Source: an uncultured Pelagibacteraceae bacterium (GTDB taxonomy: Bacteria > Pseudomonadota > Alphaproteobacteria > Pelagibacterales > Pelagibacteraceae). From it: a stretch of DNA of 55,403 nt. Position 1 is the stretch's first letter, and every line of letters begins with the position of its first letter. The DNA lies in assembly GCA_902582385.1 (NCBI GenBank), contig CACHRX010000005.1:1-55403 (forward strand). The letters are read 5' to 3'. The notes under the pieces are model-generated. The model saw nothing but the letters and a program-made list of their open reading frames with translations. It had not been told where the DNA came from and searched no databases. Made by a program: the position numbers and the translations under genes. This document shows, one piece after another, positions 10,591 to 13,879 of the stretch.

Positions 10591-10916
10591 TGACCTATAT
10601 AGTTAATGACAAGTGTATCAAATGTAAATTAATGGACTGTGTTGAAGTTTGTCCAGTTGATTGCTTTTATGAAGGCAAAAATATGCTTGTAATTAAACCT
10701 GATGAGTGTATAGATTGTGGCGTTTGTGAGCCAGAATGCCCAGTTGATGCTATAAAAGCAGATACAGAACCTGGCAGCGAAAAATGGTTAGAAATCAATA
10801 AACAATATTCTGAAATCTGGCCTAACATAAATGAAAAAAAAGATCCCCCTTCGGATCATGAAAAATATAAAAATGAGCAAGATAAGTTTGAAAAATATTT
10901 TAAAGAAAACCTTTAA
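10590..10916 (+). CDS. fdxA: 7Fe-8S type ferredoxin FdxA
   Basis: The 108-residue electron carrier has the FdxA double cluster pattern: [21 protein letters not shown] for the first set and [16 protein letters not shown] for the second, followed by the usual C-terminal extension with W and acidic residues. The partner reductase is not in the window. The gene is the third member of the helicase-TerB-fdxA-carD cluster; fdxA next to carD is common in alphaproteobacteria. The carD reading frame starts inside its 3' end. Confidence 0.93.
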
Positions 10917-11739
10917 AAAAAAGAATTCAAAAAAAATTGCAAAAAAAAAGACAAAAAAAAAAGTAAAAAAAAATATTCCTAAAAAAACAAAAAAAGAAAT
11001 AACTAAACTAAAAAAAAAGACATCAAAAAAACCTATAAAAAAGATTGAGGAAAAAACTGAAGTTAAAACCGATAATTTAAGAATTTCTAAAACTAATGAA
11101 ATAAAGCCAGAAATCAAAAAAGTAAAAAAACAACTCTCTGAAAAGAAAGAATACAAAATTAAGGATTTTGTAGTATATCCAAAACATGGTGTAGGACAAA
11201 TTACAGAGTTCAAAAAAATAAATATCGGAGGGATCGATGTTGAAACTTATGTGATTAAGTTTGAGAAAGACAAAGCAAATGGTATGGTGCCAGTAAATAA
11301 ACAATCACATTTACGTCCTCTTTCATCAATTAATCAATTAAATAAATGTATTTCTATTTTAAAAGGTAAACCAAAGATTAAAAGATCTATGTGGAGTAGA
11401 AGAGCCCAAGAATATGAAGCAAAAATATCTTCAGGAAAAGTTTATGAATTAGCTGAAGTTGTAAGAGACCTAAATAAAGGAGACGATATTATGGTTGACC
11501 AATCTTATAGTGAAAGACAACTTTTTGAAAAAGCCTATGAAAGAATTCTTGCTGAATTTAAAATTATTTTAAATGTATCTTTAGAAGACACACAAAAAAA
11601 ATTAGATAAAGCTCTTAAGAGAAATTTGGGAGGCCAGCAAACCCAAGCCCCTCAATCTACTCCAAAGACTTCAACAACTGATTTACCAACAGAAGAGCCT
11701 GCATCAGATACTGAAGAAACTGAGCCAGTTGAAGAATAA
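10873..11739 (+). CDS. carD: CarD/CdnL-family transcription regulator with lysine-rich N-terminal tail
   Basis: CarD proteins bind the RNA polymerase beta subunit and stabilise open complexes at promoters, rRNA promoters included. The RNA polymerase-interacting domain is evident from about residue 95 ([20 protein letters not shown], then [15 protein letters not shown]), and the helical DNA-binding part follows ([32 protein letters not shown]). Unusually, the first ~80 residues are dominated by Lys, Ser, Thr and Ile like a histone H1 tail, and the last ~35 are a Gln/Pro/Thr/Glu-rich acidic tail. Start choice is uncertain: 10873 gives 288 residues and overlaps fdxA by 44 bases; ATG at 10831 or 10858 is also in frame. 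Confidence 0.88.
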
Positions 11740-11741
11740 AA

Positions 11742-11781
11742 AAAAACGCCTCTCACACAAAATGTTATGAGAAGCGTTTTT
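11742..11781. terminator. Bidirectional intrinsic terminator between carD and the Lys/Arg-rich microgene
   Basis: AAAAACGC pairs with GCGTTTTT and TCTCA with TGAGA, interrupted by one C/A mismatch, around a 12-base loop. A-tracts on the left and T-tracts on the right provide a U-run on either strand, so it can end carD on the plus strand and the 27-residue gene on the minus strand. Confidence 0.85.
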
Positions 11782-11802: not shown

Positions 11803-11886
11803 CTATCTTCTTCTTCTTCTTTTCTTAGCTTTTTTCTTAGCTTTTTTCTTAGTTTTCTTTGCAGCTTTTTTTCTTCTTTTAGGCAT
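11803..11886 (-). CDS. Ultra-basic 27-residue protein, histone-tail-like
   Basis: The ORF encodes 27 residues, of which 13 are Lys and 7 are Arg; the rest are four Ala, one Thr, one Pro and the initiator Met. It begins MPKRRKKAAKK, continues with repeats of KKKA and ends in five consecutive Arg before TAG. A strong ribosome binding site GGGAG lies 6 bases before the ATG, one of the best in the window. A TTGACA-led promoter lies upstream and a bidirectional terminator downstream. Such a peptide could bind nucleic acid or polyphosphate, which is inference. The composition resembles the Lys-rich tail of the adjacent CarD. Confidence 0.72.
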   Translation of the reverse strand: MPKRRKKAAKKTKKKAKKKAKKRRRRR

Positions 11887-11907
11887 CTTTAGCTCCCTTT
11901 AGTTAAT

Positions 11908-11924
11908 CGAATCAAAATGATTCG
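11908..11924 (-). repeat. Perfect 7-bp inverted repeat in the microgene leader
   Basis: CGAATCA and TGATTCG flank AAA (CGAATCAAAATGATTCG). It lies between the predicted -10 and the ribosome binding site of the 27-residue gene, so it would form a hairpin in the 5' leader or serve as a dimeric protein binding site. Confidence 0.6.
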
Positions 11925-11935
11925 CTATTACCTTA

Positions 11936-11964
11936 TTTTTATTTTTTTATACACGTTATGTCAA
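11936..11964 (-). promoter_or_regulatory. Predicted promoter of the Lys/Arg-rich microgene
   Basis: On the minus strand a perfect TTGACA (11959-11964) is followed after 17 bases by TAAAAA (11936-11941), a four-of-six match to TATAAT. The predicted transcript would start near 11930 and carry the inverted repeat at 11908-11924 and the GGGAG site. The remainder of this gap (11965-12080) is A/T-rich with no further recognisable feature. Confidence 0.5.
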
Positions 11965-13794: not shown

Positions 13795-13879
13795 TGGTGG
13801 GCGAAGAGAGAATCGAACTCTCACTTCTTGCGAAACACGATTTTGAGTCGTGCGCGTCTACCAGTTCCGCCATTCGCCC
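13795..13879 (-). tRNA. tRNA-Leu (anticodon CAA)
   Basis: Read on the minus strand, acceptor GGGCGAA pairs with TTCGCCC, discriminator A, and CCA is encoded. The anticodon stem CACGA/TCGTG encloses CTCAAAA, giving anticodon CAA, which reads UUG. A long variable arm (TTTCGCAAGAAGTGA) marks a class II tRNA such as tRNA-Leu. The T loop is TTCGATT. The acyl-CoA ligase ATG follows after four bases. Confidence 0.97.

Follow-up and report, generated by a model that had tools for sequence, protein, structure and literature searches.

A conserved Lys/Arg-rich small protein gene convergent with carD in SAR11 bacteria and its likeness to histone H1 tails

A Lys/Arg-rich reading frame next to carD

Can an open reading frame (ORF) of 27 residues, 20 of them Lys or Arg, be a gene, and what would its product do? 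The question was raised by an initial annotation of a 55,403 nt stretch of DNA (contig CACHRX010000005.1, assembly GCA_902582385.1; in the following called the window) from a SAR11 (Pelagibacteraceae) genome, whose assembly comprises ~0.97 Mb in 44 contigs and is 82.6% complete. Translation confirmed the ORF, MPKRRKKAAKKTKKKAKKKAKKRRRRR, with 13 Lys and 7 Arg. It is encoded by the minus strand, from 11886 down to 11803; the annotation had given no strand. The wider proposal, a free-standing histone-tail-like peptide gene with a TTGACA box, a strong ribosome-binding site (RBS) and a terminator, is supported by the comparisons described below, including conservation of the TTGACA box. The features of the locus are:

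10831–11739, plus strand: CarD/CdnL-family transcription factor with a Lys-rich N-terminal extension (PF21095, PF02559), the convergent neighbor
11742–11781, no strand assigned: terminator-like hairpin between the convergent ORF and carD, with T-runs on both sides
11803–11886 including the stop codon, minus strand: Lys/Arg-rich ORF MPKRRKKAAKKTKKKAKKKAKKRRRRR, 27 amino acids, supported by conservation and purifying selection
11887–11897, minus strand: GGGAGCTAAAG, Shine-Dalgarno sequence plus spacer, directly before the ATG
11908–11924, minus strand: leader hairpin CGAATCATTTTGATTCG, a perfect 7-bp dyad (CGAATCA-TTT-TGATTCG) predicted to lie near the mRNA 5′ end
11935–11941, minus strand: weak −10 region, TAAAAA at 17 bp or AAAAAT at 18 bp, a consensus match only
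11959–11964, minus strand: −35 hexamer TTGACA, located 39–41 bases upstream of the hairpin in 84 of the 84 close loci possessing both

The upstream neighbor of the ORF on the same strand encodes an acyl-CoA ligase (AMP-binding), and a ferredoxin gene precedes carD. Immediately upstream of the ligase gene is a tRNA-Leu (caa) gene (13795–13879, minus strand).

The genome is very A-rich and Lys is encoded by AAA and AAG, which would suit the view that no functional protein is made and that the ORF is just A-rich sequence surrounding a terminator or serves to regulate a neighboring gene. However, no other ATG-started ORF of 20 or more amino acids in the window reaches a Lys plus Arg content of 50%, and nothing comparable to MPKRRKKAAKKTKKKAKKKAKKRRRRR appeared in 40 dinucleotide shuffles. 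A role as attenuator uORF is excluded in the window, because no gene on the same strand follows the ORF before the terminator and the ORF faces carD. Considering also the conserved start codon and RBS and the strong purifying selection reported in the next section, we regard the probability of a non-functional ORF as negligible.

Conservation in SAR11 and selection on the codons

The peptide gene was sought beside carD. A CarD scan kept 80 loci, 60 with SAR11 names (Pelagibacteraceae, Pelagibacterales, Pelagibacter) and 20 from other Alphaproteobacteria. Our set of close loci consists of those 60 SAR11-named contigs, for which no genus was assigned, 30 loci from same-genus genomes and one extra same-genus locus. 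Scans without an RBS requirement found the ORF in 28/30 same-genus and 59/60 named loci; a recount gave 87/90, then 88/91 with the extra locus, these being counts of loci rather than of independent species, as named and unnamed records may overlap. The three misses (L036, L040, L123) are contig ends. The encoded proteins range from 21 to 35 residues in length with 65–81% Lys plus Arg, and 35 distinct proteins are specified by 54 distinct coding sequences.

Beyond the close loci, five other genera of the family contributed 16 loci, each with the gene beside carD (21–50 residues). In the sister family it was found in 21 of 23 loci, the two misses (L052, L060) again being contig ends. Genomes of the order contributed all 16 other-genus loci, three of 20 new sister-family loci and one of 68 new same-genus loci; no CarD match was obtained in 11/61 relatives and 18/147 genomes of the order. 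A dyad search (see below) led to ten further same-genus genomes, which all possess the gene but are a biased draw and stay outside these counts. The sister-family proteins, MEELKVIFAKARKKAKKKAAPKKK... or similar, are 40–99 residues long with 53–61% Lys plus Arg and carry H1-tail-like AAPKK or KKAAPKK repeats in variable number. Wherever both genes were located (85 close, 16 other-genus and 21 sister-family loci), the gene is convergent with carD at a distance of 34–191 bases. The case for homology of the 27-mer with the 85-mers is made by place, leader hairpin and terminator rather than by alignment, and in the best reading MPKRRKKAAKKTKKKAKKKAKKRRRRR represents the short version of a family that varies in length.

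Genes in two other carD neighborhoods were named by eye. The sister-family locus L049 (1363–4480) contains, in this order, genes for a ferredoxin, CarD, the peptide, a tRNA-binding-like protein and an rpoH-like sigma factor. Locus L199, from another alphaproteobacterial family, has ferredoxin, carD and rpoH-like genes in succession; in the window, the acyl-CoA ligase gene occupies that place.

Searching with the protein alone yielded a match in just 16/61 genomes, because a low-complexity query earns low scores; further copies came to light through synteny. Class-wide peptide searches returned nothing or only the window and are uninformative, since one of them missed G267 and G158, both of which possess the gene. 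Outside the order, the surroundings of carD in 47 loci, several of them short, contained no frame of 20–120 residues with at least half Lys plus Arg; weaker basic frames reach Lys plus Arg fractions of 0.27–0.44. The Lys-rich frames of L199 and L201 overlap the CarD extension, and in L199 a frame break separates this extension from the CarD core.

Loss of the start, the RBS or the reading frame in close relatives, or frameshifts in the Lys/Arg run, had been named in the initial annotation as the outcome that would speak against a gene. The opposite was found: the start codon is ATG in 87/87 scored close ORFs and the 11-base GGGAGCTAAAG precedes it exactly in 82/87, with a single deviating base in the other five. 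The RBS search pattern admitted only these variants, and the scans without it gave the same ORFs.

Over 117 close pairs of equal length, the nonsynonymous fraction was 0.37, compared to a mean of 0.77 (0.72–0.82) in 200 simulations; the pairs share ancestry, which makes their effective number smaller, but the gap is still large. For 124 same-length pairs, the pN/pS ratio was 0.14 once pairs with pN ≥0.15 had been removed as doubtful alignments, a cut that lowers the ratio. One identical 25-residue protein is encoded by eight distinct coding sequences. These patterns point to strong purifying selection on the codons. On comparative grounds, the ORF is a genuine gene, and its conservation extends to both families of SAR11 (Pelagibacterales) examined.

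The gene may have been encountered before. For the SAR11 strain HIMB5, the accessible part of Stav et al. 2019 (PMC6429828) mentions three or more short intergenic ORFs without names, and these could include it. In PMC2704228, as far as its accessible text goes, misannotated coding regions were screened out, and the term CarD is absent from the main text. PMC8632094 does not mention CarD or histone, PMC5069961 does not mention CarD, histone, nucleoid or small proteins, and PMC5324124, on Caulobacter CdnL, lacks the terms SAR11, Pelagibacter, lysine and N-terminal extension. A literature search for SAR11 histone-like, nucleoid or small proteins gave nothing on point among the matches listed.

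Promoter, ribosome-binding site and terminator

The GGGAG reported 6 bases before the ATG is present. In genome G000, GGGAGCTAAAG occurs in four copies, and the one at this locus alone precedes a Lys/Arg-rich ORF; another stands before a 10-residue frame and two before a stop after 2–3 codons. An in-frame ATG within the leader hairpin would lengthen the ORF by 9–10 residues in L035, L041, L042, L046 and L185, where we favor the downstream ATG as start because the RBS is conserved. A phage origin was considered and rejected: four viral contigs match the RBS-plus-start pattern and none leads to a Lys/Arg-rich peptide.

Of the promoter proposed in the annotation, the TTGACA stood, while the −10 element at a 17-base spacing is weak, being TAAAAA by reading and AAAAAT at 18 bp in our scan. 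The consensus match alone proves nothing, as the 601-base region contains four promoter-like sites versus 2.6 (sd 1.6) expected. TTGACA is kept in 85/87 close loci, the contig stopping before it in the other two (L038, L079).

The terminator had been described as bidirectional. T-runs do flank the hairpin on both sides, but the scan called it on the minus strand only. Hairpins were found at the same place in 13/13 hand-chosen, folded representatives, in several different sequences.

The leader hairpin is a local element

The perfect 7-bp dyad at 11908–11924 was confirmed, and the leader hairpin is kept in relatives alongside the ORF and its ribosome site, which is what the annotation had proposed to look for. 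CGAATC/GATTCG is exact in 82/86 close-locus leaders; of the other four, L045, L125 and L127 carry a mismatch and L124 a U-G pair. We searched for the pattern CGAATC-N3-7-GATTCG and found exactly one copy in G000. Among 14 genomes searched, it occurs once in each of the 11 of the same genus, always at the peptide locus, and not at all in the three from other genera. As a control, the backwards pattern gave one match in 2/14 genomes, i.e., single chance matches occur. In three other genera, the CGAATCA letters at the 5′ side stay but belong to longer complementary stems of other sequence, e.g., AATCACATAATTAATTATGTGAT or TCACTTAAAAAAAATTTTAAGTGA.

A regulon-operator reading of the dyad was rejected. 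The dyad is a single copy per same-genus genome at this locus only, which identifies it by sequence distribution as a local leader element and not a regulon operator. Control by CcrM through GANTC sites was considered as well, the arms containing GAATC and GATTC; however, none of the five other genera of the family has GATTC in the 3′ arm, and each genome has the dyad just once. The spacing between the half-sites differs by 2 bases among close loci and the stems in other genera differ, which favors an RNA hairpin at the predicted mRNA 5′ end over a protein operator.

Covariation is weak. In an alignment of 17 leaders (15 close loci and two from other genera), one pair changed on both sides, and 67/500 shuffles reached the score; the hairpin pairs of the close loci are nearly invariant, and pair counts were not above shuffles. 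Compared with shuffles, the window's leader shows no gain in folding (z −1.06), three sister-family leaders show a slight one (z −1.2 to −2.2), and four other-genus leaders reached z −2.4 to −5.0. In predicted folds, CUCC or CCUC pairs with the Shine-Dalgarno region in L158 and L161 (one leader each from two genera) and in two of three sister-family leaders (as in L055 and L062), which suggests translational control there; the predicted fold of the window's leader has no such pairing. At the Rfam gathering score, the leader had no match, and the window yielded two tRNAs only.

The CarD neighbor

The neighbor is a true CarD-family protein. The annotation had noted a Lys-rich tail on it, similar to the peptide, and a possible shared origin or target. 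The protein is Lys-rich indeed, but through an N-terminal extension of mixed Lys/Thr/Val/Ile/Pro/Glu composition and not KKKA-R repeats. The example extensions all being of this kind, a shared origin is unsupported by sequence; a shared target is possible. The extension was found in every SAR11 group examined, with 31–42% Lys on average and medians of 62–111 residues, and sits before the RNA polymerase (RNAP)-binding domain (window; L017–L066, L068–L127, L158–L177). Outside the Pelagibacterales, 6/46 CarD loci (L194, L201, L205, L207, L216, L217) encode a Lys/Ala-rich, H1-like N-terminal extension of 67–201 residues with uncertain start codons, the 46 being those with a recognizable motif, which one of the 47 lacks.

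Because SAR11 CarD is Lys-extended and six further CarDs have Lys/Ala tails, a functional tie between peptide and CarD appears plausible from these sequences. In its strongest form, the tie would make the peptide a free basic tail that works at promoters together with CarD bound to RNAP. Such a pair would be a split counterpart of the CarD-plus-H1/HMGA-like arrangement in Myxococcus xanthus. There, according to the part of PMC8156234 available, human HMGA, H1 or the H1 tail can stand in for CarD's basic disordered domain. The convergent arrangement in two families fits such a partnership, but the short convergent gap may just reflect a stable shared terminator in streamlined genomes. Moreover, the peptide gene has its own promoter-like box on the opposite strand, implying that the two are not co-transcribed, and a clear case of gene loss was not seen beside carD, the only place searched. 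We consider a dedicated CarD partner quite unlikely.

Proposed function

To us, the chances are about even that the product is a free-standing polycation resembling the tail of histone H1, which coats DNA and perhaps RNA too. Presumably disordered, it would work like the C-terminal tail of H1, binding DNA (possibly RNA) without sequence specificity by charge neutralization and helping to compact the nucleoid beside HU/IHF. HU/IHF-type proteins were found in 31/31 genomes searched, with 2–3 matches in 29, so the peptide would add to them and not replace them. Transcription would start from its own TTGACA promoter and give a short mRNA with a 5′ hairpin, which may have a stabilizing or regulatory role, and a strong RBS, ending in the terminator region common with carD.

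The composition would suit RNA equally well, and we see DNA as the likeliest ligand and RNA as the main rival. bTHX, bS22 and bL37 are very short, highly basic ribosomal proteins. A tiny ribosomal or rRNA-assembly protein of the bTHX, bS22/AURKAIP1 or bL37 type, buried in rRNA, would resemble the peptide in size, charge and Arg-rich end, and the strong, conserved RBS would fit. The ribosome of Mycobacterium smegmatis gave two previously unidentified proteins, according to the accessible part of that work. However, MPKRRKKAAKKTKKKAKKKAKKRRRRR matched no Pfam or NCBIfam family (E up to 1) and no PDB sequence, neither a bTHX/bS22/bL37 family profile nor a solved ribosomal chain being matched, although a 27-residue low-complexity query has little power here. 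The neighbor is carD and not a ribosomal operon. Lengths of 21–99 residues with repeat expansion are unlike those of rRNA-docked proteins; such variability disfavors a docked partner of fixed geometry and argues for nonspecific binding by charge. We therefore rate a ribosomal protein as unlikely.

Binding of polyphosphate (polyP) or RNA condensates instead of the nucleoid is a further alternative. PolyP granules depend on the H1-like AlgP for their even spacing (PMC9239181, in the part accessible), but nothing at the SAR11 locus points to polyP, and we judge this reading very unlikely.

The H1-tail-like polycation can be extended, tentatively and with rather low confidence, to an order-wide tail-only histone: a protamine-like protein of at least 21 residues that condenses the chromosome of the very small SAR11 cells, tunes its own synthesis through the 5′ hairpin and, in some genera, the anti-Shine-Dalgarno helix, and partners the Lys-tailed CarD. 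If true, the peptide or the nucleic-acid load would set its production via the 5′ hairpin. A bare histone-like tail conserved in a streamlined genome suggests a polycation that is hard to dispense with, and the CarD link would bear on how basic disordered tails serve RNA polymerase factors.

Comparison with known basic proteins

The likeness to H1 is one of composition, the low-complexity sequence having no family match. The peptides share with H1-like proteins the Lys-rich low complexity with Ala/Pro spacing and the change in length by in-frame repeats, as seen across the three groups of loci. A curated profile matched neither the 27-mer nor three sister-family forms, for which only unrelated families appeared (E 0.5–8.5). 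bTHX, bS22 and bL37 are alike in being short and basic, but differ in that the peptide has no profile or PDB match and changes length by repeats.

Chlamydia Hc2 (165–237 residues) and Bordetella BpH1 (182–206 residues) are alike in being Lys-rich with Ala/Pro/Thr spacers; for both, as well as for AlgP, the sections of the literature consulted report Lys-rich repeats in variable number. The likeness is greatest for the sister-family forms. Unlike Hc2 and BpH1, the peptide has only 21–99 residues, no profile match and, in the window's family, no N-terminal domain. AlgP of Pseudomonas aeruginosa, as described in the portion of the source available, combines an N-terminal domain with a 195-aa disordered C-terminal domain of KPAA repeats; its basic repeats are H1-tail-like as well, but the SAR11 peptide is the tail alone.

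In M. xanthus, a basic disordered, HMGA/H1-like tail is likewise tied to a CarD-family protein, as far as the accessible source goes. It is fused at the C-terminus there, whereas the SAR11 peptide is encoded by a separate convergent gene and SAR11 CarD has its own N-terminal Lys-rich extension. By composition, the peptide would represent a novel form of the bacterial H1-like proteins, with a proposed function in coating nucleic acids.
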